A stretch of DNA of 64,000 bases, taken from NCBI RefSeq assembly GCF_002583555.1, contig NZ_BEGX01000029.1, forward strand, positions 62,001-126,000, read 5' to 3'. Within the stretch, counting starts at the first letter, position 1. The number at the start of each line of letters is the position of its first letter. Source of the stretch: Pseudonocardia sp. N23. GTDB taxonomy: Bacteria; Actinomycetota; Actinomycetes; Mycobacteriales; Pseudonocardiaceae. Shown piece after piece: positions 6,121 to 61,153 of the stretch. The notes below the pieces were generated by a model that was not told the origin of the DNA, did not search any database, and saw nothing but the letters and a program-made list of their open reading frames with translations. The position numbers were made by a program, and so were the translations under genes.

Positions 6121-7269
6121 ATGACGACGACCGAGCGCGCACCGACCACACCGAGGGACGCCGACGACCCGGCACCGCGGGACCCGGCACCGGAGGCGGG
6201 CCCACCCAGGGTCCCGCCTGTCCCACCCACCCCGGCCGCGGCACAGCCCCGCCCGCGCAGGCCCCGGCGGACGCTGCGGATCGTCGCGCTGGTCGTCGCG
6301 GTCGCGGTGCTGGCGACGTTCGTCGTCGCGGCGGTCGTCGCGACCCTGTCGCCGTCGGGCAGCGGCGGCGGGTACGCGGTCACGGTGGACCGCGACTCCA
6401 CGTCCTCGTCGTCCACCGGGTCCCCGGGCGGGTCCGCCGAGTCGACGACCGGGGGCGCACCCGCCGTCCCGCAGTCCTCCGACGCCGCCCGCGCCGCCGA
6501 CCCCGGCACCCGCGACCCCGCCCAGGACACGACGGTCGGCCCCGACCGCGCCGTCATCCGGACCGCGACCGTCCGCATCGAGGTCGCCGACCCCGCCGGC
6601 ACCGCGGGTGACGTGCGCGCCGCCGTCACCGCCGCGGGCGGCTACGTCGCCGACGAGCGTTCCACGAGCCGCCGCTCCGACCTCACCGTCAAGGTCCCCG
6701 CCGCGCAGCTGGACGCGTTCGTGAACCGCGTCGCCGGGCTCGGGACGGTCACCGAACGATCCTCGACGGCCCGCGACGTCACCGACCAGCTCATCGACAC
6801 CGACGCGCGGGTCGCGGCGCAACGTGCGAGCGTCGACCGGGTCCGCGCCCTGCTGGCGCAGGCGAACTCGATCTCGGAGGTCGTCGCGATCGAGTCCGAG
6901 CTGACCAGCCGCCAGGCCGCCCTCGACTCGCTCGACCGCAGGCTCGCGGGCCTGCGGTCGAGCACCGAGCTGGCGACGGTCGACGTCGCGCTGGTGGAGG
7001 CCGGTACGCCCGCGGCCACCGACACGGGGACGGGCTTCGGCGAGGGTCTCGGCGTCGGCTGGGACTGGCTGCGCGGCCTCGGCGCGGGACTCGCCGCCGC
7101 CGCGGGCTTCGTGCTGCCGCTGCTGCCCGTCGCCGCGGTGCTGGTGCTGGCCGCGTGGGGCGTCCGCCGCATCGTCCGGGCGCGCCGCCCCCGCCCCGCC
7201 GCGGCCGGCCCCACCGCAGGCCCCACCGCTGGAGGACCCGCCGACTCCGCCCCCGCCGACAGGACCTGA
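6121..7269 (+). CDS. DUF4349 domain lipid/membrane-anchored protein
   Basis: 382 residues. A Pro-rich cytoplasmic N-terminus (1-55) leads to a membrane helix (about 57-80, ALVVAVAVLATFVVAAVVAT). A Ser/Thr/Gly-rich linker follows, then a DUF4349 domain (about 140-290) with the typical RTATVRIEVADP start and a coiled-coil segment (ARVAAQRASVDRVRALLAQ). A second C-terminal membrane helix (about 318-350) comes last. Function is unknown. The ATG at 6121 with an upstream GAGAGGGGAG site is preferred over the in-frame ATG at 6025, which gives a non-homologous tail. Confidence 0.82.
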   Translation: MTTTERAPTTPRDADDPAPRDPAPEAGPPRVPPVPPTPAAAQPRPRRPRRTLRIVALVVAVAVLATFVVAAVVATLSPSGSGGGYAVTVDRDSTSSSSTGSPGGSAESTTGGAPAVPQSSDAARAADPGTRDPAQDTTVGPDRAVIRTATVRIEVADPAGTAGDVRAAVTAAGGYVADERSTSRRSDLTVKVPAAQLDAFVNRVAGLGTVTERSSTARDVTDQLIDTDARVAAQRASVDRVRALLAQANSISEVVAIESELTSRQAALDSLDRRLAGLRSSTELATVDVALVEAGTPAATDTGTGFGEGLGVGWDWLRGLGAGLAAAAGFVLPLLPVAAVLVLAAWGVRRIVRARRPRPAAAGPTAGPTAGGPADSAPADRT

Positions 7270-47767: not shown

Positions 47768-47807
47768 GTGAGTGGCGATGGTCGACATGGCGACCATCGC
47801 CACTCAC
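47768..47807. repeat. 40-base palindrome, family A copy 4
   Basis: Perfect 18-base arms (left GTGAGTGGCGATGGTCGA or GC-type, loop about CATG) four bases after the methanol dehydrogenase stop. The next gene, MoxR, reads the same way, so here it could act as an attenuator or mRNA 3' end stabiliser. Confidence 0.85.
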
Positions 47808-47921
47808 GACCTCTTCCCGACGGGCCCGCCACGCGATTCCGGCGCATGCTGGGACGTGATGGGCCCGCCCGGGCCACCTGCCGCGGCTCGCCGGAGAGCC
47901 GCGCGGAAGGAGTACCCGGCC

Positions 47922-49100
47922 GTGAGCAGCGTGTCCGACGAGACCCAGCTCGACCCCGCCCCCGCGTTCGACTCCGTCGACGACGTCATCGACGCCCTGC
48001 GCGAGCAGGGCTACATCGCCGACACCCGGCTCGCCACGACCGTGTTCCTGCTGACCCGGCTCGACAAGCCGCTGCTGCTGGAGGGACCCGCGGGCGTCGG
48101 CAAGACCGAGCTGGCCAAGGTCCTCGCGCTCGCGACGGGCCGGCGGCTGCTGCGGCTGCAGTGCTACGAGGGCCAGGACGAGACCAAGGCCCTCTACGAG
48201 TGGGACTACGGCAAGCAGCTGATGTATACGCAGATCCTGCGGGAGAAGATCGGGCAGGTCGTCGAGGACGCCCCCGACCTCACCACCGCGGTCGAGCGGA
48301 TCGGGGAGAACGAGAGCGTCTTCTTCTCCGAGCGGTTCCTCGCCCCGCGCCCGCTGCTGGAGGCGATCCGCTCCGAGCAGCCCGTCGTGCTGCTGATCGA
48401 CGAGGTCGACCGCGCCGACGAGGCATTGGAGGCAGTCCTGCTGGAGACGCTGGGCGAGTTCCAGATCTCGGTGCCGGAGATCGGCACGTTCGTCGCGAAA
48501 CAGCGCCCGTACGTGCTGCTGACCTCGAACAACACCCGCGACCTGGCCGCCGCGCTCAAGCGTCGCTGCCTGCACATGTTCCTCGACTACCCGGCCGCCG
48601 AGCGCGAGCTGGAGATCGTCCGCTCCAAGAAGACCGGGCTTTCCGACGCGCTGGCCGAGGAGCTGGTCGGGGTCGTGCGCGGGCTGCGCGAGCTGGAGCT
48701 GCGCAAGGCGCCCAGCATCTCCGAGACGATCGACTGGGCCCGTACGCTCGCGGTGCTCGGCGTCGAGGAGCTCAACTCCCAGATCCTGTCGGACACGGTG
48801 TCGGTCGTCGTCAAGTACGACAAGGACGTCACCAAGGCGCTCGGTGCGCTGCCGCGGCTGGTCGACCCGAACGCGGAGATCTCCGATGAGCACGGGCACG
48901 GGCACGGGCACGGGCACGGGCACGAGCCGGACGGTGACGTCGACGGCCGGGCGAAGCGTGCCGGGAAGGACACCGCCGGCAGGCACGGCAGCGTCTACGG
49001 CGGCACCCCCGGTGCCGCGCAGCAGACGCCGACGCCGGTCCGCGCGGTGACCCCCGGCCAGGGGGAGAGGTCGTTCGGTCGTCGCAAGCGGCCGTTCTGA
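47922..49100 (+). CDS. MoxR-family AAA+ ATPase with His-rich C-terminus
   Basis: 392 residues from GTG 47922 with GGAAGGAG upstream. Walker A LLLEGPAGVGKTE (about 51-63), Walker B VVLLIDEVDRAD, sensor 1 LLTSNNTRDLAAALKRRC. After the ATPase, residues 325-340 read DEHGHGHGHGHGHEPD, followed by a basic tail. MoxR proteins with VWA partners act as maturation chaperones, often for metal enzymes. Follows the methanol dehydrogenase gene and is coupled to the VWA gene by a one-base overlap. Confidence 0.92.
   Translation: MSSVSDETQLDPAPAFDSVDDVIDALREQGYIADTRLATTVFLLTRLDKPLLLEGPAGVGKTELAKVLALATGRRLLRLQCYEGQDETKALYEWDYGKQLMYTQILREKIGQVVEDAPDLTTAVERIGENESVFFSERFLAPRPLLEAIRSEQPVVLLIDEVDRADEALEAVLLETLGEFQISVPEIGTFVAKQRPYVLLTSNNTRDLAAALKRRCLHMFLDYPAAERELEIVRSKKTGLSDALAEELVGVVRGLRELELRKAPSISETIDWARTLAVLGVEELNSQILSDTVSVVVKYDKDVTKALGALPRLVDPNAEISDEHGHGHGHGHGHEPDGDVDGRAKRAGKDTAGRHGSVYGGTPGAAQQTPTPVRAVTPGQGERSFGRRKRPF
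48892..48925 (+). repeat. Hexamer tandem repeat coding His-Gly
   Basis: About five to six units of CACGGG encode alternating His-Gly in the MoxR tail. A shorter version (CACGGGCACGGGCACGG, near 49340-49360) encodes HGHGHGHG in the neighbouring VWA protein. Confidence 0.8.
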
Positions 49101-50647
49101 TGGAAGCCGCGATCCACCGGTTCGTCCGGCTGCTGCGGATCCGGGGTGTGCGCATCTCGGTCTCCGAGGCGCTCGACGCCATGCGCTGCGCCGCGCAGCC
49201 CGGCATCCTCGCCGACCGCGAGGTCCTGCGGGAGGCGCTGCGTGTCTCGCTGGTCAAGGACCGTCGCGACGACGAGGTGTTCGACGCGGTCTTCTCCGCC
49301 TACTTCGCGCTGGTGGAGGTGGGCGAGGAGGAGCAGGGCCACGGTCACGGGCACGGGCACGGCGACCTCTCCGACGACGGCACCCTCGACGACTTCACCC
49401 TGTCCGAGGATCCGAGCCGGACCCCGCAGCAGGGCCACAGCCACGGCAAGCCCGTCGACATCCGGGACTACTTCGACCCCGACGACCTCGCTCAGCAGTA
49501 CAACCTGCACCAGGAGGCCAACAAGATCGACCTGGCCGCGATGACCGACGAGATCGTGTTCTCGAGGGACGACGCTGCCAACCAGGCCCTCACGGAGGGC
49601 AACCGCGTCCAGATCGAGACCGACCGGCTCTCCGGCGCGGGCCTGCCCGGCGACATCTCGCAGGCCACCGGCACCAAGGTCGACGCCGACCTCTCCGTCG
49701 CGCAGCAGCAGGCCCTGCTGGGCTGGCTCTCGGCCACCGAGGAGGAGATCGAGGCAGAGAAGGGCAACGAGGACGACGCCGCGGCCTTGCGACGCAGGCT
49801 CGCCGGCGTCCTGGCCAACCTGCCCGAGGCGATCAAGAAGCACCTGGAGCAGCTGCTCGAGCTGGAGCAGCGGATCGTCGACGGCGGGCACGAGGACGCG
49901 GTGCGGGCCGCCGAGGTGGACCGGGCGTCGGAGACCGAGCGGATGCAGCTGGAGGACTCCCTGCGCCGCCTGGCCAAGACCCTGCACGGCGCCCTCACGC
50001 ACCGCCGCCGGGTCGCGGCGCAGGGCCGGGTCGACTCGGGCCGGACCATGCGCCGCAACATGCGCTACGACGGCATCCCCTTCAACCCGGTGACGGTCAA
50101 GCGGGCGGAGGACAAGCCGCGGCTGGTGGTACTGGCCGACGTCTCCCTGTCGGTGCGCGCCACCGCCCGGTTCACCCTGCACCTGGTGCACGGGCTGCAG
50201 GACCTGTTCGGGCAGGTCCGCTCGTTCGCCTTCGTCTCCGACCTCGTCGAGATCACCGACCTTTTCGCCGACCACCCCGTCGAGCAGGCCCTCGGCTTCG
50301 TCTTCGGCGGCGACGTCCTCGACGTCGACGCGAACTCCCACTACGGGCTGGCGTTCGGGCAGTTCATGGAGGACCACTCGTCGGCGGTCAACCGGCGCTC
50401 GACGGTGCTGATCCTGGGCGACGGCCGGGGCAACGGGAACGACCCGAACATGGAGGCGTTCGTCGAGATCACCCGCCGCGCCCGGGAGACGATCTGGCTG
50501 ACCCCCGAGCCCCGCTACTCCTGGGGCCTGGGCCGCTGCGACCTGCCCGCCTACGCCGAGCACTGCGACCGCGTCCGGGTCGTGCGCGACCTGACCGGCC
50601 TGGAGACGACCGCCCACGAGATGGCCGGCGAGCTCATAGGCCGCTGA
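49100..50647 (+). CDS. VWA domain protein (CoxE/MoxR partner) with His-rich insert
   Basis: 515 residues. Start overlaps the MoxR stop as TGATG. N-terminal helical region (LRIRGVRISVSEALDAMRC), then a His-rich acidic segment EQGHGHGHGHGDLSDD (about 75-90) and QGHSHGKPVD. The C-terminal VWA domain (about 340-515) has the MIDAS-type DVSLSVRAT. Works with MoxR ATPases in enzyme assembly; the pair after an NDMA-type methanol dehydrogenase suggests activation of that enzyme. Poly-His clusters in both partners suggest metal handling. Confidence 0.9.
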   Translation: MEAAIHRFVRLLRIRGVRISVSEALDAMRCAAQPGILADREVLREALRVSLVKDRRDDEVFDAVFSAYFALVEVGEEEQGHGHGHGHGDLSDDGTLDDFTLSEDPSRTPQQGHSHGKPVDIRDYFDPDDLAQQYNLHQEANKIDLAAMTDEIVFSRDDAANQALTEGNRVQIETDRLSGAGLPGDISQATGTKVDADLSVAQQQALLGWLSATEEEIEAEKGNEDDAAALRRRLAGVLANLPEAIKKHLEQLLELEQRIVDGGHEDAVRAAEVDRASETERMQLEDSLRRLAKTLHGALTHRRRVAAQGRVDSGRTMRRNMRYDGIPFNPVTVKRAEDKPRLVVLADVSLSVRATARFTLHLVHGLQDLFGQVRSFAFVSDLVEITDLFADHPVEQALGFVFGGDVLDVDANSHYGLAFGQFMEDHSSAVNRRSTVLILGDGRGNGNDPNMEAFVEITRRARETIWLTPEPRYSWGLGRCDLPAYAEHCDRVRVVRDLTGLETTAHEMAGELIGR

Positions 50648-50655
50648 CACAGCTC

Positions 50656-50695
50656 GTGGGTGGCGATGGTCGCTGTGGCGACTGTCGCCACTCAC
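50656..50695. repeat. 40-base palindrome, family A copy 5
   Basis: 18-base arms (left GTGGGTGGCGATGGTCGC, loop TGTG) with two mismatches, nine bases after the VWA stop. It separates the methanol dehydrogenase/VWA group from the RiPP operon. Confidence 0.85.
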
Positions 50696-50763
50696 AGTGG
50701 CGCGGGCCACACACTCGGGCGGCCTCTTTCGTTCGCCCGCGGCGGGCCGTACCGTCTGCGCTA

Positions 50764-50782
50764 CATGGAAATGGTTTCCATG
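50764..50782. promoter_or_regulatory. Zur-box-like palindrome upstream of the RiPP precursor
   Basis: Perfect palindrome CATGGAAA-TGG-TTTCCATG, ending 20 bases before the precursor ATG. The core TGGAAATGGTTTCCA matches the actinobacterial Zur-type consensus (TGAAAATGATTTTCA, from memory) at 12 of 15 positions. It overlaps the expected transcription start region. Zur identity is inference; another Fur-family regulator is possible. Confidence 0.6.
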
Positions 50783-50802
50783 TTCGTAAATGGAGGTTGC
50801 AC

Positions 50803-50991
50803 ATGGAGAACGTCACGTTCGACGACGTCACCGAGCTGCCCGCGCTGTCGGCGCTGCAGGGCCCGACGACCAACGCGCTCGTGCACAACCCGTTCTCGTT
50901 CGACGAGGTCGCCGAGCTCCCGGCCCTGTCGGCGCTCCAGGGCCCGACGACCAACGCCCTGGTGCACAACCCCTTCTCGTTCTCCGGCTGA
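50803..50991 (+). CDS. RiPP precursor peptide with duplicated 27-residue unit
   Basis: 62 residues. After MENVT come two units of 27 residues (6-32 and 33-59), 25 of 27 identical: each has an acidic start FDDVTELPALSALQG or FDEVAELPALSALQG and then PTTNALVHNPFS. The peptide ends FSG. Strong ribosome site GGAGG six bases before the ATG. No Cys; candidate modification sites are Ser and Thr. Each unit looks like a short recognition part plus a core part, so both the leader-like and core-like parts are duplicated. It is followed by an E1-like protein and two YcaO genes. No known RiPP class recognised. Confidence 0.82.
   Translation: MENVTFDDVTELPALSALQGPTTNALVHNPFSFDEVAELPALSALQGPTTNALVHNPFSFSG
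50818..50979 (+). repeat. Two 81-base tandem units in the precursor gene
   Basis: Units at 50818-50898 and 50899-50979 encode the same peptide except two residues (Asp/Glu, Thr/Ala). Synonymous differences are scattered (for example CTGCAG versus CTCCAG), so the duplication is old enough to have drifted while the protein stayed fixed, which indicates selection on both copies. Confidence 0.85.
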
Positions 50992-51063
50992 TCACCGACT
51001 GAACGTGCCCGCCCTGGCGCCCGTCCCGCGGGCGCCAGGGCCCGCGTCTTCCCGGAGGACCTC

Positions 51064-51840
51064 GTGACCCCCCTACGCCCCGGCCATCACCTGTACCCCG
51101 CACCCGACGGCTGGCGCTGTGCCCTGCCGGGCGACCGCTACGTCCGCATCGGCGGCCCCGACGAGGCGTTGCGTGCCTTCCAGCCGACTGCCCACGGGCA
51201 CACCGGCTCCGCGACCGCCGACGTCGGCGCGCTGCGCGACGCGTTCGCCGCCCACGACCTGCTGGCCGAGCCCGTCGCCACCGGACCGGCGCCGCGCGTC
51301 CTGATCACCGGTGACGGGCCGGTGGCCGACGCACTCGCCGCCGTCCTCTCCGGCTGGACACCCCGGCGGGCCGGCCGGGCCGACGCCCTCCGGGACCTCG
51401 ACGTGCTCGTCGACTGCGCGGGCTGGCTGCCCGACGCCCGCTGGCAGGCCCTCGACGCCGCCTGTGCCGCGGCGGACGTCGCCTGGCACCGCTGCCACGC
51501 CGAGGGCACGTCGTTGCTGACCGGACCGCTGACCGTGCCCGGCCGCTCACCCGGCTGGACCGACCTGCGCGGGCGCCGCCTGGCCGCCAGCGGTGTCGCC
51601 GACGAGCTCGTCCACCACTGGGCCTGGCTCGACTCGGGCACCGGCACCCCGCCCGTACCCGACCACGGGCCGGGCATCGCGGCCGTCGTCGCCGGGCTGC
51701 TCGCCGACGAGATCGCGACTTGGTGGCGCACCGGCGTCGCCGGCCCGGTCGGGTACCAGACCGAGGTGTCGACGAACCCGTTGCGCGTGACCCGCCACCC
51801 GGTCCTCACCCTGCCGACCCTCGCGGCGGCGACGCCGTGA
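51064..51840 (+). CDS. TOMM-type E1-like / leader-binding partner of YcaO
   Basis: 258 residues from GTG 51064 with GGAGGA upstream. The N-terminus (LYPAPDGWRCALPGDRYVRI) resembles the RRE-type winged helix of TOMM cyclodehydratase partner proteins. A Rossmann-like part follows (RVLITGDGPVADALAAVLSG) and the chain ends in a region typical of ThiF-like/ocin-ThiF proteins (FxTEVSTNPLRVTRHPVLTL-like, here VGYQTEVSTNPLRVTRHPVL). No zinc Cys ligands. It should bind the precursor and deliver it to YcaO. Stop overlaps the next gene as GTGA. Confidence 0.8.
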   Translation: MTPLRPGHHLYPAPDGWRCALPGDRYVRIGGPDEALRAFQPTAHGHTGSATADVGALRDAFAAHDLLAEPVATGPAPRVLITGDGPVADALAAVLSGWTPRRAGRADALRDLDVLVDCAGWLPDARWQALDAACAAADVAWHRCHAEGTSLLTGPLTVPGRSPGWTDLRGRRLAASGVADELVHHWAWLDSGTGTPPVPDHGPGIAAVVAGLLADEIATWWRTGVAGPVGYQTEVSTNPLRVTRHPVLTLPTLAAATP

Positions 51841-53399
51841 CCGGCCTCCTGTCGGACCTGACGACCTGGGCGAACCTGCCCGTCGCCGCGGCCGACGGCA
51901 CCGAGCTGGTCCTCGACGCTCACGTCCCGCCCGCGACGCAGTGGCCGGTACCCGTCGTCGTCACGCGCACGCCCTACGGCCGGTCCACGCATCTCGCCGA
52001 GGGCCGCAGCTGGCGGTCGCGCGGGTTCGGGTTCGTGGTGCAGGACGTCCGCGGCCGCTACGACTCCGCGGGCATCTGGACGCCCTACCGCAACGAGCGG
52101 GCCGACGGTGCCGCCCTGCTCGACTGGGTGCTCGACCAGCCGTGGTGCGACGGGAGGATCGCCGTCCTGGGCGGTTCCTACGCCGGGTACACGGCGTGGA
52201 CGATGGCCGCGGAGCGCCCTGTCGCGGCCCTGCTCAGCCTCGGGCCGTCGATGGGCCTGCACCGCACCAAGTTCGAGCCCAGCGGCATCCTGCGCCTCGC
52301 CGAGCACGCGGGCTGGTGGCTCGACCGTGCCGACGCCCGGACCAGCCGCGACGGCCTGCGCCGGCTCGTGTTCGCCGAGCACCCCGACCTGCTGGCGCAC
52401 CTGCCGGTCTCGGGGATCGCCGACCTGCTCGGCGCCCGGCTCCCGCACTGGACCGACACGCTGGCCATGCACCCGTCCGACACCCCGGCCGAGGCCGTCA
52501 CCGACGCCGAGGTCCGGGGGCTCGCGGCGCCGTCGCTGCACGTCGGCGGTTGGTACGACCTGCTGGTCTACGAGGTGCTCGACCTGCACGCGCGCAGCGG
52601 GTCCGCCGTGTCCCCACGACCGCGGCGCGACCTCGTCGTCGGGCCGTGGGGCCACGACCTCGGGATGGACGGGACGACCACCGTCGGTGCCCGCGAGCAC
52701 GGCGTGACGGCGAGGCTCCCGCTCGGGACGCTGTTCGTCGAGTGGCTGCGCGCCGCCCTCGACGATCCCACCGCTCCCGGGAACGCACGCGTCTTCGTGC
52801 CCGGCGCCGACCGCTGGGAGACGACGCCGACGTGGCCCGCACCCATCCCGACGCGGACCTGGCGCCCGGGTGCCGACGGCACGCTGGACGACGCCGCGGC
52901 GCCGCACGGGGGCGTCACCTTCGCCCACGACCCCGCCGATCCGTTCCCGTCGACGTTGCCCGCGGCCGACCGCGCCCCGCTGCTCGCCCGCCGCGACGCC
53001 GCCCGGTTCGCCACCGGGCCGCTGCGGGCGCCGCTGCGCGTCGACGGCGCCGGGCACGCCGACCTCGAGGTGTCCACCACGGCGGAGGGCGCGGACTGGG
53101 TCGTGCGCCTGCTGGAGCACCGGCCCGACGGACGGCTGCTGGAGGTCACCCGCGGCACGGCCGTCACCGCAGGCGGTGGGCCGCACCGGATCCGGGTGCC
53201 CCTCGGCGCGTGCGCGTCCGTCGTCGACACGGGGTCTCGGCTCGTGCTGGAGGTCACCGGGTCGGACTTCCCGTTCCTCGCCCGCAACCTCGGCACCGGC
53301 GAGGACCGCCACCACGGCACCCGGCTACGCGCCGGCGCACAGACCGTCCACACCGGAACGTCGGTGCTCGCGCTCCCGATCGGGGACCACCGTGGCTGA
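51837..53399 (+). CDS. CocE/NonD (S15-like) alpha/beta hydrolase in the RiPP operon
   Basis: 520 residues from GTG 51837. X-Pro dipeptidyl-peptidase-type fold: VVTRTPYGRS, DVRGRYDSAGIW, nucleophile Ser in VLGGSYAGYTAW, Asp in VGGWYDLLVYE, and His in GPWGHDLGMDG. C-terminal jelly-roll domain (about 370-520). No signal peptide, so cytoplasmic. Family members include X-Pro dipeptidyl peptidases and cocaine esterase. Precursor units carry Pro at LP, GP and NP, so trimming of the peptide is a reasonable guess. Overlaps the YcaO gene by eight bases. Confidence 0.85.
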   Translation: MTGLLSDLTTWANLPVAAADGTELVLDAHVPPATQWPVPVVVTRTPYGRSTHLAEGRSWRSRGFGFVVQDVRGRYDSAGIWTPYRNERADGAALLDWVLDQPWCDGRIAVLGGSYAGYTAWTMAAERPVAALLSLGPSMGLHRTKFEPSGILRLAEHAGWWLDRADARTSRDGLRRLVFAEHPDLLAHLPVSGIADLLGARLPHWTDTLAMHPSDTPAEAVTDAEVRGLAAPSLHVGGWYDLLVYEVLDLHARSGSAVSPRPRRDLVVGPWGHDLGMDGTTTVGAREHGVTARLPLGTLFVEWLRAALDDPTAPGNARVFVPGADRWETTPTWPAPIPTRTWRPGADGTLDDAAAPHGGVTFAHDPADPFPSTLPAADRAPLLARRDAARFATGPLRAPLRVDGAGHADLEVSTTAEGADWVVRLLEHRPDGRLLEVTRGTAVTAGGGPHRIRVPLGACASVVDTGSRLVLEVTGSDFPFLARNLGTGEDRHHGTRLRAGAQTVHTGTSVLALPIGDHRG

Positions 53400-54750
53400 C
53401 CTCGCCGCCGCGCTCGCCGACCGGCGGACCGGGCTGCTCGTCGACGTCGGCCGGCTGCCCGTGCCGCCCGGCCTGCCGTCGGGCTTCGTCTCCTACGGCG
53501 CTCTCGTCGGGCGCACGGACCGGTTCACGACGTGGCGCGCCGACGCCACCGGGTTCGGCGCGAGCCTCGGCGACGAGGACGCCGCGCGCGCCGCCGCGAT
53601 CGGCGAGGCGATCGAGCGCTACTGCGGCAACGCCGTGCCCGACACGCTGCGCCGCGCCTCCCACGCCGAGCTGGTCACCGCCGGCGAGGACGCGCTGGAC
53701 CCCGCGACGCTCGCCCTCTACTCGGCGCGGCAGTACCGGTTGCCGGGCTTCCCGTTCGTCCCGTTCACCGCCGACCTACGGGTGGGCTGGGTGCACGGCA
53801 CCGACCTGCACCACGGCGAGCCCACCTGGGTACCGGCGTCGCTCGCGCACCTCGACTACGTCCACGGCACCCGCGCGGACGAGCCACCGACGCACTCGCT
53901 CATGTACTCCGGCATCGCCGCGGGCACCGACCGCGCCGCGGCCGAGCGGTCGGCGCTGGAGGAGCTGCTCGAACGCGACGCCACCGGCATCTGGTGGGCC
54001 TCCGGCGCCCCGGCGACCGGCCTCGACGACGGCGGCCGCGTCACCGGCGCACTCGGCCGGCCCGCGGGCGACGTACCCCTGCGGGTGCACCTGACCGCCG
54101 TGCCGTCGGAGTTCGACGTGCCGGTGGTCGCAGCGCTCGTCGAACAGGACGGCGGGTTCGTCGGGTTCGGCAGCGCCTGCCGCGCCGACCCCGCCCAGGC
54201 GGCGGCGAAGGCGCTGGTCGAGGCCCTGGGACTGCTGCGCCACGCCCGCGACCTCGCCGACCCGGACAGCCTCGCGTGGGCCGCCGTCGCGTCCGGGACG
54301 ATCGAGGCGCACGCCTATCTGCCTTTCCGCGCCGACCGTCGCTACGCCGACGACACCGGTCCGGGCCATCGGGCGCTCACCGACCTGCCGGGCGTCGCCC
54401 AGCTCTACCTCGACCCGCGCATGCAGGGCGCTCCACTGGACCCGCTGCGCCCGGCGGCCACCCGCCGCCTGGACGACCTGCCCGACATCGGCGACGCCCG
54501 TGCCGAGTACCTGCGCCGGCTCGCCGCGGCCGGGATCCGGGTGGTGTCGGTCGACCTCACCACCCCGGACGTGCGGGCCGCGGGCTGGCGTGTCGTGCGG
54601 GTCGTCGCGGCCGGGCTCATCGGCAACGGGCCACCCGCGTTCCCGTTGCGCGGCAGCGCCCGGCTCCACGACGTCCCTGCCCGGCTCGGCTGGCCGGCCC
54701 CACCCCGCGACGAGGACGACCTCGTCGACCATCCTCTGCCCCTGGCCTGA
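53392..54750 (+). CDS. YcaO-domain protein 1 (SagD-like cyclodehydratase)
   Basis: 452 residues from GTG 53392 (VADLAAALADRRTGL). YcaO ATP-binding signatures: EAIERYCGNAVP (near residue 70), AAAERSALEELLERDATGIWW (shown in part), QAAAKALVEALGLLRHARDL, and the C-terminal region ends in DHPLPLA, a Pro-rich tail as in azoline-forming YcaO. YcaO proteins use ATP to activate peptide amide bonds, giving azolines, thioamides or amidines. Middle gene of the RiPP operon. Confidence 0.92.
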   Translation: MADLAAALADRRTGLLVDVGRLPVPPGLPSGFVSYGALVGRTDRFTTWRADATGFGASLGDEDAARAAAIGEAIERYCGNAVPDTLRRASHAELVTAGEDALDPATLALYSARQYRLPGFPFVPFTADLRVGWVHGTDLHHGEPTWVPASLAHLDYVHGTRADEPPTHSLMYSGIAAGTDRAAAERSALEELLERDATGIWWASGAPATGLDDGGRVTGALGRPAGDVPLRVHLTAVPSEFDVPVVAALVEQDGGFVGFGSACRADPAQAAAKALVEALGLLRHARDLADPDSLAWAAVASGTIEAHAYLPFRADRRYADDTGPGHRALTDLPGVAQLYLDPRMQGAPLDPLRPAATRRLDDLPDIGDARAEYLRRLAAAGIRVVSVDLTTPDVRAAGWRVVRVVAAGLIGNGPPAFPLRGSARLHDVPARLGWPAPPRDEDDLVDHPLPLA

Positions 54751-54761
54751 GAGGTGCACCC

Positions 54762-56075
54762 GTGAGTCCCGAGCTGCTGTGCGATCCGCGGACCGGGATC
54801 GTGCGCGCCCTGGAGCCCGCCGCGGTCCCGGTGCACTTCCCGGCGTCGTTCTCCCTGACGACGGCCCGCATCGCCGACACCGCCCGCTTCGGCGGCTGGG
54901 CGTCCGACCCCGCCGGGGCGGGCTACGCCTTCGCCGACCCCGGCGCGGTGCGTGCGGCCGCGGTCGGGGAAGCGGTGGAGCGCTACTGCGGCAACCTCGT
55001 CCCACCGGGCCTGGTGCGGGCGAACCACGAGGCGCTCGGCCGCCGCGCGCTCGACCCGACGACCTTTGCGTTCTTCTCCGCCTCGCAGTACGCGACGCCC
55101 GGCTTCCCCGCGGTGCCGATGACACGAGACCTGGTCATGGAGTGGGCACCGGGCCGCGATCTCGTCGACGGCTCCGAGGTCCTCGTCCCTGCAGGTCCGG
55201 TGTGGCCGTCGTACCACTCGCCGGTCGGCGACCGGCGCGGCCCACTGACCAACCCCGTGATCCAGGCCGGGCTCGCCGCCGGCCCCGACCGTGAGTTCGC
55301 CGTGTGGGGCGCGCTGCGCGAGGTCGTGGAGCGCGACGCCATGACGCTGTCCTGGTACGGCGGCCTCGGCGTCCGCGCGCTCGACCCGCCCGGCTGGCTC
55401 GCGTCGTTCGCGGCCGGTCCGCAGGGGCTGCTCGCGACCCGGTTCGTCGCCCTGTCCTCGCCCTTCGGGCTGCCGGTCGTCGGGGCGCTGGTCGTCGACG
55501 AGGTGACAGGCCTGCTCAGCCTCGGCACCGGCGTCGATCCCGACCCGGTGACGGGGGCGGTCAAGGCGTTCGCCGAGGCGCTGCAGCTGCAGCTCGTCCT
55601 CGCCGACTACGACGATCCCGACGGTGCGTTCGCCGCCGCGGCCGCCCACCCGCGCAGCCCGCTGCAGCCGTGGCGAGCCGACCGCGCCTACGGGTCGGCC
55701 TACCTGCCCGACCGTTCCGACGTCGTCGACTACGCCTGCCACCTGCAGCTGCACCTCGACCCGGCGGTGCGCGCCGGGTTCGAGGCCGAGCTCGCCGCGC
55801 GCATCACCGGCCGGGTCGCGCTGGACTCGCTCGCCGGCCCGGTTCGCGACGCCGCCGATCTCGTCGACGTGCTGACCCTCGCCGGGCACCGCGTCGTCGC
55901 CGTCGACGTCACGACGACGGACGTGGCGCCGCCCGACTGGACCGTGGTGCGGGTGCTGGTCCCGGGGCTGTACTCCAACGCACCGATGGGCCTGCCGTTC
56001 CTGGGCGGCTCCCGCCTCGTCGCGGCCCGCCGGTCCTCCCCGTTCCCGCTCCCCCGCACACCGCTGCCCCACTGA
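54762..56075 (+). CDS. YcaO-domain protein 2
   Basis: 437 residues from GTG 54762. Signatures as in YcaO 1: EAVERYCGNLVPPGLVR, ALREVVERDAMTLSWYGGLG, TGAVKAFAEALQLQLVLADY. C-terminus PFPLPRTPLPH fits the Pro-rich tail of cyclodehydratase YcaO proteins. It is clearly a paralogue of the preceding gene with the same domain layout, not a fragment. Last gene before the family A palindrome at 56079. Two YcaOs plus one precursor recalls bottromycin-like pathways, but the other genes differ. Confidence 0.92.
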   Translation: MSPELLCDPRTGIVRALEPAAVPVHFPASFSLTTARIADTARFGGWASDPAGAGYAFADPGAVRAAAVGEAVERYCGNLVPPGLVRANHEALGRRALDPTTFAFFSASQYATPGFPAVPMTRDLVMEWAPGRDLVDGSEVLVPAGPVWPSYHSPVGDRRGPLTNPVIQAGLAAGPDREFAVWGALREVVERDAMTLSWYGGLGVRALDPPGWLASFAAGPQGLLATRFVALSSPFGLPVVGALVVDEVTGLLSLGTGVDPDPVTGAVKAFAEALQLQLVLADYDDPDGAFAAAAAHPRSPLQPWRADRAYGSAYLPDRSDVVDYACHLQLHLDPAVRAGFEAELAARITGRVALDSLAGPVRDAADLVDVLTLAGHRVVAVDVTTTDVAPPDWTVVRVLVPGLYSNAPMGLPFLGGSRLVAARRSSPFPLPRTPLPH

Positions 56076-56078
56076 GCC

Positions 56079-56118
56079 GTGAGTGGCGATGGTCGCTGTA
56101 GCGACCATCGCCACTCAC
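56079..56118. repeat. 40-base palindrome, family A copy 6
   Basis: Perfect 18-base arms (left GTGAGTGGCGATGGTCGC, loop TGTA). It lies four bases after the YcaO 2 stop and contains the stop codon of the opposing MFS gene (56115-56117), so it closes both converging operons. Bidirectional terminator function is likely. Confidence 0.88.
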
Positions 56119-57338
56119 GACCGTCGCGGGCCTCGGCCGGGGAGGCACACGGCAGTGGCGAGGGCCGTGACCGCGAGAACGACGACGCCCGCCCAGAACG
56201 CCGTCCGCACCCCCGCCGCGGCGGCGACGAACCCCGCGAGCATCGCACCGAAGGGGTTGCCGCCCCACGCGACCATCCGGCCGATCACGTTGACCGACGA
56301 CACCAGCCCCGGCGGACTGACGAGCTGGCGGTAGGTGATGCCGGTGTTGATGGCGATCTGTGTCGCGGCCCCGAACAGCAGGTAGCCGGCTGCGGCGAGC
56401 CACAGCCCACCGGAGGCGGCCAGCACCGCCAGCGCCCCCGCGCCGACGAGCAGTGCGCCCGGGGTGAGCAGCCGGACCCGGCCGACGTCGAACAGCCTGG
56501 CGAACACCAGCCCCGCGAGCAGCGTGCCGACCGCGCCCGCCGAGAACAGCCACCCGACCCGGGCGTCGACCTCCGCGATCCCCAGCCCCTCCACGGCGTA
56601 GACGACGAGCTGCCCCGCCACCGCGCCGATCGCCAGCGACTGCGCGAACCCGGCGACGAGCAGCACGCACAGCGTCCGGTCCGACACCACGAACCGCAGG
56701 CCGGCCGCGGCGTGGGAGCGCAGGGTCGCCCGGATCCGCGGCTCCCGGAACGAGCCGCGCACCCCGGTGAGGAGCAACGCCCCCAGCGCGAACCCGGCGA
56801 CGTCGACCCAGATCGCGGACGCCGCGCCGACCGTCGCCACCAGCGCCGAACCGATCGCCGGACCGCCGATCATCGCCGCCGAGACGACCGCGAGCAGCAC
56901 CCCGTTGGCGGCGGCGAGGCGCTCGGGGCCCACGATCGTCGGAAGCGCCCCGAACGCGGCCGCATCGGCGAACACGAACGCGGTCGACCCGACCAGCGTC
57001 ACCACCCAGATCTGGACGATCGGCACCGGGGTGACCGCGTCGACCACCGGGATCGTCGTCATCGCCAGCCCCTCGACGAGGGTCATGGCGATCAGCAGAC
57101 GTCTGCGGTCGACACGGTCGGCGATCGCGCCCGCGACGAGCCCCACCGCGAGGTAGGGCACGACGCGCAGCGCCGCGAGCAACCCGGTCTGCACGGGCGA
57201 GCCGGTCCGCTCGTAGACCAGGATCGGCAGCACGACGGTGCTGACCGCGAACCCGAGCGTCCGCACGACGTCCGAGGCCAGCCACAGACGGAACGACGCG
57301 TTGCCCGCCAACAGCTCCCGGGTGCCCGCGCCCGTCAC
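56115..57338 (-). CDS. MFS transporter, probable exporter (EntS-like)
   Basis: 407 residues from GTG 57338, overlapping the binding-protein stop as GTGA. About 12 membrane helices: LWLASDVVRTLGFAVSTVVL, LVAGAIADRVDRRRLLIAMT (the MFS loop A motif), VVSAAMIGGPAIGSALVATV. Resembles MFS_3/EntS-type exporters that secrete siderophores or antibiotics. Last gene of the importer operon and convergent with the RiPP operon, so it is a good candidate for exporting the mature peptide. Confidence 0.85.
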   Translation of the reverse strand: MTGAGTRELLAGNASFRLWLASDVVRTLGFAVSTVVLPILVYERTGSPVQTGLLAALRVVPYLAVGLVAGAIADRVDRRRLLIAMTLVEGLAMTTIPVVDAVTPVPIVQIWVVTLVGSTAFVFADAAAFGALPTIVGPERLAAANGVLLAVVSAAMIGGPAIGSALVATVGAASAIWVDVAGFALGALLLTGVRGSFREPRIRATLRSHAAAGLRFVVSDRTLCVLLVAGFAQSLAIGAVAGQLVVYAVEGLGIAEVDARVGWLFSAGAVGTLLAGLVFARLFDVGRVRLLTPGALLVGAGALAVLAASGGLWLAAAGYLLFGAATQIAINTGITYRQLVSPPGLVSSVNVIGRMVAWGGNPFGAMLAGFVAAAAGVRTAFWAGVVVLAVTALATAVCLPGRGPRRS

Positions 57339-58306
57339 GGGCCGTAGACCGCGGTGGCCGCCTGCTCGACCAGGTCGACGATGTCGACCCCGCCGCCGCT
57401 GATGTCGACGTTCGACATCGCGACGACCTTGCCCGCGGCCACGGCCGGTGTGGCGGCGAACGCGGTCCGCGCCGCGTCGACCGCCGCACCTGCGCCACCG
57501 GCCTCCTCGTGGACGGCGACGATCGCGTCGGGCTTCGCGGTGAGGACCTGCTCGGGGCTGATCTCGGCGAAGTTCTGCCCGAGCGAGGCGAACACGTTGG
57601 TCAGGCCCGCGCCGTCGAGGATCGCGTTGTAGTACGAACCGGCGAGAGCGTAGACCTTCCCGTCGTAGACCTGTACGACCGCGACCCGCGCCGGTGCCAC
57701 CGTGCCCCTCTTCGCCGCCGCCGCCGAGACCCGGCGGGTCAGGTCCGCGACGATCGTGTCCGCCCGGTCCCGCACGCCGAACACCGCGCCGAGGTCCCGG
57801 ATGTCGGTGTACACGGCGTCCAGCGTCGCGGGGGCGGGCGTGTCGAGGCAGTAGCCGCCGAGTACGAACCCCTTGCCTCCCACGGCCTCGAGGTCGGCCC
57901 AGCCCGCGGTACCCTCGGCGCCGGAGAGCTGGTTCTCGTCGTTGGCCAGGAACAGGTCGGGCCGTGCCGCGAGCAGCGCCTCCTTGGCAGGCTTGAAGTC
58001 CGGCGACACCTCGGTCGCGGTGAACCCCGCGGGCAGCTGCGCGTTCGCGCCGCTGACGTAGCCGGTGACCTTCCGCGCCATGCCGAGGGCGTCGAGGGTC
58101 CGCACCGACGTCGCCCAGCCGAGGACGACTCGCTCCGGCGGCGCGGTGAACGTCGAGACGTGTCCGCAACGGATGACCGACACCGGGAAGCCCGCGGCCG
58201 CGGGGGTGCCCGACGCCGGCGCGGTGGGTGCGTCGCCGCAGCCGGCGAGCGTCATCGCGACGACGACTGCTCCGACGGCGAGACGGCTTCTGCGGGGGAC
58301 GGGCAC
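57335..58306 (-). CDS. Periplasmic-binding-type lipoprotein for metal complex/siderophore uptake
   Basis: 323 residues from GTG 58306 with GAGGAG upstream. Signal peptide and lipobox VAMTLAGC. Helical-backbone (FecB/BtuF class) fold: PERVVLGWATSVRTLDALGM, LLAARPDLFLANDEN, LGAVFGVRDRADTIVADLTR, ISPEQVLTAKPDAIVAVHE. Binds a chelated metal or cobalamin-like ligand and passes it to the permease. Its start lies inside the 3' end of the ATPase gene (about 55-base overlap). Confidence 0.9.
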   Translation of the reverse strand: MPVPRRSRLAVGAVVVAMTLAGCGDAPTAPASGTPAAAGFPVSVIRCGHVSTFTAPPERVVLGWATSVRTLDALGMARKVTGYVSGANAQLPAGFTATEVSPDFKPAKEALLAARPDLFLANDENQLSGAEGTAGWADLEAVGGKGFVLGGYCLDTPAPATLDAVYTDIRDLGAVFGVRDRADTIVADLTRRVSAAAAKRGTVAPARVAVVQVYDGKVYALAGSYYNAILDGAGLTNVFASLGQNFAEISPEQVLTAKPDAIVAVHEEAGGAGAAVDAARTAFAATPAVAAGKVVAMSNVDISGGGVDIVDLVEQAATAVYGP

Positions 58307-59118
58307 GGGTGCTCCTCGGGGGGTGGGGTGCGGCGGGACGCCGGCCGGGCGGGTGCGAGCGGGGCGAACATGAACGTCGGGCGCCCGGTGAGCGGGTTGA
58401 TGGCGCGCGCGGCGTCGACGCCGTAGACGCGGCGCACCAGGTCCGGCTCCAGGACGTCACCGACGGGGCCGTGGGCGACCACGCGCCCGTCGCGGAGCAC
58501 GACGACCTCGTCGCAGTACGCGGCGGCGAGGTTGAGGTCGTGCAGCGCGGCGACGACGGTGACGCGCAGACCGCGCAACAGGTCGAGCAGGTCGACCTGG
58601 GCGCGGACATCGAGGTGGTTGGTGGGTTCGTCGAGCACGACGACGGGGGTGCGCTGGGCCAGCGCCCGGGCGAGGAACACCCGCTGCCGCTCCCCGCCGG
58701 ACAGGGTGGCGACCGGGCGCGACGCGAGCCCGTCGACCCGGGCGGTGACCATCGCGTCGTCGACGATCGCGGCGTCGGAGGCGGCGTCGCGGCGGACGAG
58801 CCCCTGGTGGGGCACCCGGCCCAGCTCGACGACCTCGCGGACGGTGAACTCGAAGTCGGTGGGGTCGTCCTGCATGACGACGGCGGTGCGTCGCGCCGCG
58901 GCCCGCGGGGACAGCCCCCAGACGTCGTCCCCGCCGACCCGGACGGTTCCGGCGTCCGGGCGCAGCGCCCGGTGCAGGGTGCGCAGCAGTGTCGTCTTGC
59001 CCGAACCGTTGGGGCCGAGCAGCCCGACGACCGTCCCCTGCACCGCGCGCAGCACGGCCCCGGCGACGATCGTGCGCCCCGCGATCTCGACGTCGATCCC
59101 GTCGGCCTCGACTCGCAT
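58252..59118 (-). CDS. FecE-type ABC transporter ATP-binding protein
   Basis: 288 residues. Walker A GLLGPNGSGKTTLLRTL, Q-loop VVMQDDPTDFEFTV, ABC signature LSGGERQRVFLARALAQ, Walker B VVVLDEPTNHLD and switch His in ALHDLNLAAAYCDE. A 35-residue Pro/Ser-rich C-terminus is not typical and overlaps the binding-protein start. Start overlaps the permease stop as TGATG. Powers import of the metal complex. Confidence 0.93.
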   Translation of the reverse strand: MRVEADGIDVEIAGRTIVAGAVLRAVQGTVVGLLGPNGSGKTTLLRTLHRALRPDAGTVRVGGDDVWGLSPRAAARRTAVVMQDDPTDFEFTVREVVELGRVPHQGLVRRDAASDAAIVDDAMVTARVDGLASRPVATLSGGERQRVFLARALAQRTPVVVLDEPTNHLDVRAQVDLLDLLRGLRVTVVAALHDLNLAAAYCDEVVVLRDGRVVAHGPVGDVLEPDLVRRVYGVDAARAINPLTGRPTFMFAPLAPARPASRRTPPPEEHPCPSPAEAVSPSEQSSSR

Positions 59119-60194
59119 CAGCCGCTCCCCCGGCCCGACGAGCGCAGCAGCCAGAGGAAGAACGGTGCCCCGACCGCGGCGGTGACGATCCCGATGGGCA
59201 GCTCGACCGGCGCGCGCACGGTGCGGGCGGCGAGATCGGCCAGCGGCAGGAAGACCGCCCCGAGCAGCAGCGACACGGTGAGGACTCGACGGTTCGCGGC
59301 CCCGACGAGCAGCCGGGCCACGTGCGGCACGACGAGCCCGACGAACAGGATCCCCCCGGACACCGAGACGAGCGTTCCGGTCAGGAGCGCGACCACGACC
59401 ATGAGCTGCAGCTGGAACCGGCCGACGGCCAGGCCCAGGGAGGCGGCGACGTCGGTGCCGTTGACGAGTGCGTCGACACGACGGCCCTGCAGCAGCAGCC
59501 ACGCGGTCGCGAGGGTCACGACCATCACGGGGAGCAGGAGGTCGGCCCACCGAGCGCTCGAAACACTGCCCAACGTCCAGAACAGGACGCGGGTGACCTG
59601 GGTGGGCGTGGCGATCGTCTGCAGGAAGTAGGTGACGGCCGAGACGAGGTAGCCGACCGCGACGCCCGCGAGGACGAGCCGCGCCGGTGGCCAGTGCCCG
59701 TCCTTGCGGCCCAGGGCGAAGGTGAGGGAGAAGGCGAACAGCGCCCCGACGAACGCGGCCGCCGACAGGGTCAGGCCTCCGAGCGTGGCCGCTCCCGTGA
59801 CGATCACGGTGACCGCGCCGAGCCCGGCACCGGGGACGACGCCGATCAGGTAGGGGTCGCCGAGCGGGTTGCGGACGACCGCCTGGATCACGGCTCCCGC
59901 CACGGCGAGGCCTCCGCCGACCAGCACCGCGAGCAGGACGCGCGGCAGCCGGGACGTCCACACGATCTGGTCGAGGACGGGGTCGGGCGGGGTGACCGGG
60001 AGTCCGAGCCGGTGCGCGACGACGCCGAGGACGGTCGACGGCGGGACCGGAACCGCGCCGATCGCGACCCCGAGCACCGCGACCGCGACCGTGGCGACGA
60101 GCAGCCCGGCGCAGAGCGCGCCGAACCGGCGTGGCGCGGCGAAGCGCGGGCCCGTGCGCGGGGCCGCACCCACCTCCGTCGTTGCTGACGTCAC
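59118..60194 (-). CDS. FecCD-type ABC permease
   Basis: 358 residues from GTG 60194 with GAGGG upstream. About ten membrane helices. FecCD signatures: LPRVLLAVLVGGGLAVAGAV, QAVVRNPLGDPYLIGVVPGAGLG (in part), LFVGLVVPHVARLLVGA, LPIGIVTAAVGAPFFLWLL. A single gene suggests a homodimeric channel. First gene of the operon permease-ATPase-binding protein-MFS, downstream of a promoter that overlaps a Zur-box-like palindrome. Confidence 0.93.
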   Translation of the reverse strand: MTSATTEVGAAPRTGPRFAAPRRFGALCAGLLVATVAVAVLGVAIGAVPVPPSTVLGVVAHRLGLPVTPPDPVLDQIVWTSRLPRVLLAVLVGGGLAVAGAVIQAVVRNPLGDPYLIGVVPGAGLGAVTVIVTGAATLGGLTLSAAAFVGALFAFSLTFALGRKDGHWPPARLVLAGVAVGYLVSAVTYFLQTIATPTQVTRVLFWTLGSVSSARWADLLLPVMVVTLATAWLLLQGRRVDALVNGTDVAASLGLAVGRFQLQLMVVVALLTGTLVSVSGGILFVGLVVPHVARLLVGAANRRVLTVSLLLGAVFLPLADLAARTVRAPVELPIGIVTAAVGAPFFLWLLRSSGRGSG

Positions 60195-60257
60195 CGTGCC
60201 CTCGCATCCCTGTCGCCCGCGCCGACGGTGGTGCGCAGCTCGTGGTCCGACAGGGCG

Positions 60258-60287
60258 ACCCTACGTTTATATGAAAACGATAGTCAA
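60258..60287 (-). promoter_or_regulatory. Promoter and Zur-box-like site of the importer operon
   Basis: Minus strand: TTGACT (-35, 60282-60287), 18 bases, TAGGGT (-10, 60258-60263). Between and over the -35 lies TGAAAACGATAGTCA (60272-60286 on plus), which matches the Zur-type consensus at 12 of 15 positions and has TGA/TCA ends. A bound repressor here would block polymerase. The second such box lies at 50764 before the RiPP precursor. Confidence 0.6.
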
Positions 60288-60451
60288 TATCGACTGAGTG
60301 ACGCCTGCCTCACCCGCGGGCGCGGTGGGGTGCCCGTCCGGTCGGACAGTCGCGCGGGGCCGGGCGGACGGTTTCGCCCCTTCCGGGCACGGCGGCGCCC
60401 TAGCGTCGGGAACGCCTGCGGCGCAGGTGCGTCGCGACCCCAGGAGTGCCC

Positions 60452-61153
60452 ATGATCACCCTCGACCGGTTGGACAACGACCTCGCGGGCTGGCTCGCGC
60501 GCACCCTCGTCGCACCGGGGGTGCTGTCGCCGGAGGCGTTCGAGGCGGCCTTCGTCGCCGTCGTCACCGCGGCCGCCGAGGACCCCGACGAGGCGTGGCT
60601 CGCCTTCTACCGCAACACCCTCGCGGCGTTGGAGGTCGGCGGGCGGGTCGGCGGGACCTGCGCGGAGATCGCGCCCGTCCACGAGCGGGCGGCGGCGCTC
60701 ACGGTGGGCACCGACGTCGTCGAACTGGGGTCGTGCTTCGGGTTCCTGTCGCTGCGCCTCGCCGCGGCGGGACACGACGTCACCGCGCTGGACCTCGTGC
60801 CCGGCACGGCCGCGCTGCTCGCCCGGATGTCACGACGCCTGGGCCGCCCGGTCCGGGCGCTGGCCGGTGACGCCACCGCCGTCCCGCTCGCCGACGCCTC
60901 CGCCGACACGGTGCTCGCCGTCCATCTCCTCGAACACCTGCCGCCCGCCGCCGGGGAGCAGGTGCTCGAGGAGATGCTGAGGGTCGCGCGACGCCGGGTG
61001 GTCGTCGCGGTGCCGTTCGAGGACGAGCCCGACCGCACCTGGGGCCACGTCCGCCGCTTCGACCTCGACGCCCTGCGCGCGCTCGGCGCGCTCACGGGCC
61101 GCCCGTTCACGGTCGCCGGGCACCACGGCGGCTGGCTCGTCGTGGAGGCCTGA
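60452..61153 (+). CDS. Class I SAM-dependent methyltransferase, MftM-like candidate
   Basis: 233 residues from ATG 60452 with AGGAG five bases upstream. N-terminal helical part (DEAWLAFYRNTLAALEVGG), then a Rossmann SAM site VVELGSCFGFLSLRLAAAG, acidic post-II LDLVPG, and LAVHLLEHLPPAAGEQVLEE. The AFYRN plus VHERA plus ELGSCFGF combination reminds me of the mycofactocin oligosaccharide methyltransferase MftM, but this is from memory. Alternatively it methylates the neighbouring RiPP. Divergent from the importer operon. Confidence 0.75.
   Translation: MITLDRLDNDLAGWLARTLVAPGVLSPEAFEAAFVAVVTAAAEDPDEAWLAFYRNTLAALEVGGRVGGTCAEIAPVHERAAALTVGTDVVELGSCFGFLSLRLAAAGHDVTALDLVPGTAALLARMSRRLGRPVRALAGDATAVPLADASADTVLAVHLLEHLPPAAGEQVLEEMLRVARRRVVVAVPFEDEPDRTWGHVRRFDLDALRALGALTGRPFTVAGHHGGWLVVEA

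Follow-up and report, generated by a model that had tools for sequence, protein, structure and literature searches.

Our analysis of a 64,000-nucleotide stretch of the Pseudonocardia sp. N23 genome (contig NZ_BEGX01000029.1, positions 62,001 to 126,000 of the forward strand; hereafter the window, in whose numbering all coordinates are given) identified a locus of the streptamidine family of ribosomally synthesized and post-translationally modified peptides (RiPPs). The locus consists of two converging operons: a plus-strand operon encoding a precursor peptide, a partner protein, an S15 hydrolase and two YcaO proteins, and a minus-strand operon encoding FecCD, FecE, FecB and MFS proteins. Both promoters carry boxes that resemble those bound by the zinc regulator Zur. 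On balance, we favor the reading that the locus is likely repressed by Zur at both promoters and that, upon zinc starvation, its peptide would be made, exported and re-imported, with a predicted role in carrying zinc. As far as our searches show, the conserved Zur box and the likely role in zinc starvation are new, while the family, the branch and the idea of metal import had already been published. No paper combining "Zur" and "streptamidine" was found in the open-access literature, outside which most subscription journals lie; the streptamidine family is named in none of ten open-access papers on zincophores and RiPPs, as judged by their titles and the beginnings of their abstracts; and the term "zur" is absent from the available text of the paper describing the family (PMC8442711).

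Assignment of the locus to the streptamidine family

The streptamidine family was found through the neighborhoods of YcaO genes, and its precursors carry one of two motifs, A or B, which share the residues ALV (Russell et al. 2021, PMC8442711). FecBCDE-type genes are frequent in the clusters of this family, and a subset with two YcaO proteins, usually with motif-B precursors, is found mainly in Frankia, Rhodococcus and Clavibacter (PMC8442711). By its sequence, our locus is a member of this motif-B, two-YcaO branch, so that both family and branch were already described. We had considered an undescribed RiPP class, which was rejected because the model matched by the precursor is that of streptamidine-related peptides. 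A first-pass annotation of this DNA had known of no described RiPP metallophore with this gene set; that the gene set is undescribed was not borne out, since the branch was published in 2021 together with its FecBCDE genes and the idea of metal import (PMC8442711).

The precursor is a 62 amino acid peptide (50803..50991, plus strand) that scores 120.1 bits (cut-off 45) against the NCBIfam model NF040715 "streptamidine-related RiPP repeat protein". Its start is the ATG at 50803 and not position 50656, where the listed open reading frame (ORF) opens upstream, within a hairpin. The gene holds two near-identical copies of an 81-nt repeat, and the motif-B sequence TNALVHNPF, with the shared ALV, is present twice. 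A search with this precursor returned 11 database proteins at E <= 10, one of which is named streptamidine-related RiPP repeat protein. The next ORF on the plus strand (51064..51840) encodes an AmiB-like partner protein, predicted to be RRE / Ocin-ThiF-like, with a TIGR03882 score of 28.2 bits that is below the cut-off of 36.9. It is followed by an AmiC-like S15 / CocE-NonD hydrolase, the presumed peptide-trimming enzyme (51837..53399, plus strand; TIGR00976 220 bits, cut-off 66; Peptidase_S15 132 bits) and by YcaO proteins 1 and 2 (53392..54750 and 54762..56075, plus strand; TIGR03604 294 and 240 bits, cut-off 219; both PF02624), which are the only YcaO matches in the whole 6.54-Mb genome. 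The nearest named relatives of YcaO protein 1 are from Pseudonocardia (85-86% identity), and in 26 loci a relative with 46-86% identity is found next to a motif-B precursor.

The adjoining minus-strand operon encodes a FecCD-type permease (59118..60194; FecCD 295 bits), a FecE-type ATPase (58252..59118; ABC_tran; best NCBIfam match TIGR03873 with 291 bits, and FecE with 228 bits, both below their cut-offs), a FecB-type substrate-binding lipoprotein (57335..58306; Peripla_BP_2 70 bits) and an MFS transporter, the presumed exporter (56115..57338; MFS_1 and MFS_3; EntS model 75 bits, far below the cut-off of 324). This importer has a single permease gene rather than two. The best solved relative of the FecB-type protein is 5cr9, an Fe3+-hydroxamate-type binding protein (73.5 bits). 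All parts named in the first-pass annotation, namely a repeat precursor, a TOMM-type partner, an S15-like hydrolase and two YcaO proteins converging on FecCD, FecE, FecB and an MFS protein, were found, and their functions are supported at the family level. An AmiE dehydrogenase, a trait of the motif-A subset, was not found among the genes of the two operons; AmiE is also lacking in many of the other streptamidine-family biosynthetic gene clusters (PMC8442711).

To determine how far this gene set is conserved, named genome contigs were scanned with YcaO protein 1, which confirmed 299 relatives, and the best 80 of the 299 were analyzed as loci (L numbers below). A motif-B precursor is present in 26 of these best 80 loci, and 24 of the 26 are longer than 19 kb. 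The partner, hydrolase, two YcaO and MFS genes are present in all 24, and FecB, FecC and FecE in 23 (the exception being L038), so that the predicted co-occurrence of precursor, YcaO genes and importer/MFS operon is complete in 23 of 24. As for the two shorter loci, L021 is complete and L024 is cut by a contig end. In the 29 distinct repeat variants, in which the invariance of T, V and PF is fixed by the search pattern, Ala and Gln ahead of the conserved end are present in all 29. Among 394 genomes drawn evenly from the same class, the repeat precursor family is present in 8 (this genome counted) and the streptamidine family proper in 18. Two of the precursor loci, L036 and L043, belong to Acidobacteriota-type metagenome-assembled genomes (Holophagales, Thermoanaerobaculia); they have two YcaO genes, and their precursors end in HNHALVHNPF and HNHALVENPF. 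In L031, from about position 7250, the precursor frame of Acrocarpospora pleiomorpha has at least four repeat units, not two.

Zur-type boxes at the locus, in the genome and across the family

Box 1 of the locus, TGGAAATGGTTTCCA (50766..50780), ends 22 bp upstream of the precursor start and forms the core of the dyad ACATGGAAA-TGG-TTTCCATGT (50763-50783). Box 2, TGAAAACGATAGTCA (60272..60286), lies 77 bp upstream of the fecC start and has 1 mismatch in 11 scored positions to tGaNNatSatNNtCa, the motif obtained by chromatin immunoprecipitation of Zur in S. coelicolor (PMC5472717; hereafter the ScZur motif). The pattern TGAAAATNATTTTCA, with up to 3 mismatches, occurs at 14 sites in the 6.54-Mb genome, and its reversed control pattern at 0; the two promoters of the locus account for 2 of the 14. 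The proposal that both promoters carry palindromes close to Zur boxes was in this way borne out genome-wide and, as described below, across relatives. Five of the 14 sites were assigned a named role. Besides the two boxes of the locus, one site lies upstream of znuA (C28; PF01297), one upstream of the gene for type-B L31 (C114; 122 bits, cut-off 86) and one between an L28-S14 pair and the gene for an Mrf-family GTPase (C52; 507 bits, cut-off 375). In actinobacteria, the Zur regulon includes znuABC, ribosomal-protein paralogues and COG0523 GTPases (PMC6103462), and the same kind of box thus stands at canonical target genes in a genome that encodes Zur. This Zur orthologue (C56) has 188 bits to S. 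coelicolor Zur (3mwm) and 160 bits to the M. tuberculosis protein (2o03), and no Zur model matched it in an NCBIfam scan. The genome has four Fur-family genes: the Zur orthologue, a Nur-like gene (3eyy, 122 bits) and two with weak matches to all solved Fur-family proteins.

Both boxes are kept in the closest relative locus, Pseudonocardia L016, where box 1 corresponds to the dyad ACATGGAAA-CGG-TTTCCATGT. The GG/CC variant seen in box 1 also occurs at the same place in L007-L010, L037, L049 and L070 (Frankia-, Nocardia- and Rhodococcus-type loci).

For the family as a whole, 56 non-redundant precursor genes were examined, and the 370 bp upstream of each core motif were scored against the ScZur motif (11 scored positions). 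These genes came from 106 scanned sequences (the window, 7 NF040715 loci, the 80 named loci and 18 NF040714 loci), which contained 63 precursors, 7 of them near-duplicates that were dropped. Of the 56 promoters, 8 contain a full match, 19 a site with no more than 1 mismatch, 36 one with no more than 2 and 49 one with no more than 3; the counts expected from shuffled promoters are 0.00, 0.03, 1.03 and 10.3, respectively, and random windows of the same loci reach these levels in 0.1%, 0.5%, 6.3% and 34% of cases. ScZur-type boxes are present in both sub-branches, at a nearly fixed position. In the 25 motif-A-type genes, HLSATH precursors included, the top-scoring sites lie 128-177 bp upstream of the core motif; in the motif-B and other genes, a box found with a relaxed pattern lies 83-111 bp upstream of it in 27 of 31. 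This relaxed pattern was drawn up after the boxes had been seen, and its counts are descriptive: 46 of 56 promoters, with a shuffled mean of 0.64 and 69 of 981 random windows. The ten promoters that lack it are those of L005, L036, L038, L043, L127, L128, L129, L130, L132 and L135, among which L127, L132 and L135 have a site with 1 mismatch to the published motif and L129 one with 2. L036 and L043, which have no Zur-type box by the relaxed pattern, are the two non-actinobacterial precursor loci.

We also examined the importer promoters of the precursor loci among the 80, of which 21 are separate (18 without near-duplicates) and 12 are in-operon (11 without near-duplicates). A site with at most 2 mismatches was found in 7 of the 18 separate importer units (shuffled 0.29), a set that includes the motif-A loci L079, L081, L084, L085, L088, L089 and L093, whose FecC/FecE matches may not be cluster genes; among the 7 positives, the L021 site lies in a region shared with its precursor and the L049 site is probably due to chance. 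By contrast, such a site was found in 0 of the 11 importers that continue the YcaO operon. The box therefore follows transcription units, which is the behavior expected of an operator. When whole loci are counted, sites with no more than 1 mismatch number 25 in 38 precursor loci, 11 of them within 400 bp upstream of the precursor; 17, spread over 9 loci, in 15 loci that have partner, hydrolase and two YcaO genes and no recognized precursor; and 10, in 9 loci, in 27 other YcaO loci.

Thirteen actinobacterial loci without a precursor by motif (L039, L042, L044, L047, L050, L054-L057, L062, L064, L069 and L094) carry partner, hydrolase, two YcaO-type genes and FecB-C-E, several of them with strong upstream Zur-type sites, and it is possible that they encode a third type of precursor.

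Further links with zinc genes were found in other genomes. A related pattern gave 43 sites in 14 whole genomes (control 4); since 13 of the 14 were picked because the cluster had been found there, the 14th being that of the window, the cluster sites among them are not independent evidence. The 43 comprise 11 sites at cluster precursor promoters and 15 near zinc-type genes; the remaining 17 are at genes of other or unknown kinds. The 15 are defined by genes matched by the ZnuA, ZnuC, L31B, L28, S14 or Mrf protein of this genome, or by PF01297 (L185); the ZnuC match could reflect a different ABC ATPase, and the distance to S14 is 0.7 and 1.2 kb for the two L181 sites. Among the 17, which include G399:C13:232121, the L168 site is at an ABC-3 metal-type permease gene. 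In addition, znuA-type genes are present in the fetched stretch of L017, L022, L034 and L057 (4 of the 80 loci, with a rough expectation of about 0.5 based on two znuA per 6.5 Mb), and Zur-type genes in that of L022, L057 and L078 (3 of 80), so that znuA or Zur is found in 5 of 80. In Frankia sp. AgB1.9 (L022), the Zur gene (142 bits to 3mwm) lies about 1.5 kb upstream of the precursor; L078, with a Zur-type gene of 152 bits to 3mwm, has no recognized precursor.

A proposed zinc-carrying peptide and the competing explanations

At the level of sequence, these patterns make Zur control of the locus well supported, and Zur probably binds the two boxes and represses. In the mechanism that we favor, zinc-loaded Zur on both promoters would keep the locus silent, and zinc starvation would allow the precursor and its enzymes to be made. 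With less certainty, and with streptamidine as the model, the partner and both YcaO proteins may cyclize the precursor (to an N-terminal amidine in the case of streptamidine) and the S15 hydrolase may trim the peptide; judging from their protein families, the MFS protein may then export it and FecB-FecC-FecE may return it with metal. The exporter and the chelate-type importer, as assigned by family, are encoded together with the biosynthesis genes. Taking into account Zur control and the chelate-type importer, the simplest reading is that the peptide carries zinc. Streptamidine, a peptide of six residues (HLSATH) that carries an amidine ring at its N terminus, is the sole family product solved (PMC8442711). 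The first-pass annotation had expected the YcaO enzymes to make an azoline or thioamide ligand, which does not apply to this one solved case, where YcaO chemistry gave an amidine (PMC8442711).

We extend this proposal, tentatively and with somewhat less than even confidence, to the whole streptamidine family (>230 species), of which our locus would be one branch: its members may serve Zur-controlled zinc acquisition as ribosomal zincophores that are exported and returned by FecB-type importers, the zinc-binding form being yet to be isolated. The authors of the streptamidine study proposed metal import from the Fec genes, call the role unknown, and suggested signaling or development (PMC8442711). 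The Zur box before the precursors of both sub-branches turns this open role into a definite question about zinc starvation. If true, Zur control would explain the Fec genes and might explain why the compound obtained from ordinary media is not the active form; if zinc binding is found, ribosomal peptides would join the zincophores.

Several observations weigh against a zinc-carrying peptide under Zur control. Purified streptamidine showed no binding of iron, cobalt, copper, magnesium, manganese, nickel or zinc by liquid chromatography-mass spectrometry, an amiD mutant behaved like the wild type under metal starvation, and deletion of the Fec genes abolished streptamidine production (PMC8442711), an effect not expected of genes that serve uptake alone. 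For our importer, the strongest database matches are to F420-0 and B12-type models, none of which reaches its cut-off; Cys is absent from the precursor core; and the His of VHNPF is present in 22 of the 29 repeat variants and replaced by Gln or Asp in 7. Box 1 departs from the published ScZur motif at 3 positions, a level reached by 34% of random windows, the L016 box 1 is weaker still by this count (its dyad scores over 3), and 7 of the 56 precursor promoters have no site even at 3 mismatches.

The main rival, possible though in our view doubtful, accepts Zur control and holds that the peptide is not a zinc carrier: it would be a zinc-starvation signal or a developmental factor, taken up or sensed by FecB-C-E. 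The Zur boxes fit this equally well, the published member showed neither metal binding nor a metal-starvation phenotype, its authors suggest signaling or development, and the loss of production upon Fec deletion is what uptake-dependent autoinduction would give (PMC8442711). However, the importer is of the chelate type, and the published metal tests concern one motif-A member, not a two-YcaO one (PMC8442711). The tested compound may also not be the active form, because the dehydrogenase is essential though streptamidine shows no oxidation; the oxidized part may be cut away (PMC8442711).

It is improbable that the boxes serve another Fur-family regulator of the Nur or FurA/CatR type, with a peptide for nickel, iron or peroxide stress. 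Such a regulator could be among the four Fur-family genes, one of them Nur-like, and the GG/CC variant seen in box 1 deviates from the ScZur motif; nevertheless, like boxes stand at znuA, type-B L31 and L28-S14/Mrf in this genome and at further such genes in others, the family-wide sites fit the ScZur motif, and Zur-type genes adjoin the relatives L022 and L078. More improbable still is that the palindromes arose by chance or reflect general features of promoters, in a locus without metal control. The level of box 1 is common in random 370-bp windows, and consensus scans for promoter hexamers and terminators at both boxes gave none. Against this stand the sites with at most 2 mismatches in 36 of 56 promoters versus about 1 of 56 when shuffled, the narrow spacing in 27 of 31 genes (by the pattern drawn up afterwards) and the fact that the two promoters of a single locus hold 2 of just 14 genome-wide sites.

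Flanking elements and comparison with known systems

A 44-nt hairpin (GTGAGTGGCGATGGTCGC-n-GCGACCATCGCCACTCAC) occurs three times at gene ends in the window (47768-47811, 50656-50699 and 56079-56122). With up to 2 mismatches, one of its arms is matched 81 times in the forward and 81 times in the reverse direction in the whole genome (control 0). It looks like a repetitive extragenic palindromic or bidirectional terminator element, and the palindromes at 47768, 50656 and 56079 were rejected as operators, all being copies of this one dispersed hairpin. Next to the precursor operon lies an AAA ATPase and VWA-domain gene pair (47772-50647), which resembles MadB and MadC (381 and 265 bits, both below cut-off) and contains runs of Gly-His codons in both genes. 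On the opposite side of box 2, the importer promoter is adjoined by a gene for MftM, the mycofactocin oligosaccharide methyltransferase (60446-61153; 291 bits, cut-off 200).

Methanobactin, a ribosomal copper carrier, is a metal-carrying RiPP that the cell takes back up, and it is made by a DUF692-type iron enzyme, not by YcaO; no DUF692-type Pfam match was found in the nine cluster proteins. Bottromycin and klebsazolicin have antibacterial or ribosome-blocking action, and we know of no Fec-type importer or Zur control for either of them. Both have amidine rings made by YcaO proteins, of which bottromycin also has two (PMC8442711). Their precursors differ from that of our locus.

Ethylenediamine disuccinate is not a peptide of this kind. 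Its biosynthetic cluster in Amycolatopsis japonicum and that of coelibactin in S. coelicolor carry Zur boxes, as our locus does (PMC6103462, PMC5472717), and coelibactin is a predicted non-ribosomal peptide (PMC3430247), in contrast to the ribosomal product predicted here. The closest known system is the streptamidine (ami) cluster of Streptomyces albidoflavus J1074, which likewise has an ALV-motif precursor, AmiB, AmiC, YcaO and a Fec-type importer (PMC8442711, MIBiG BGC0002115). Its AmiE dehydrogenase and AmiT1/T2 ABC exporters were not seen among the genes of our locus, which differs from it in having two YcaO proteins, two motif-B repeats, one Fec permease gene and an MFS transporter.

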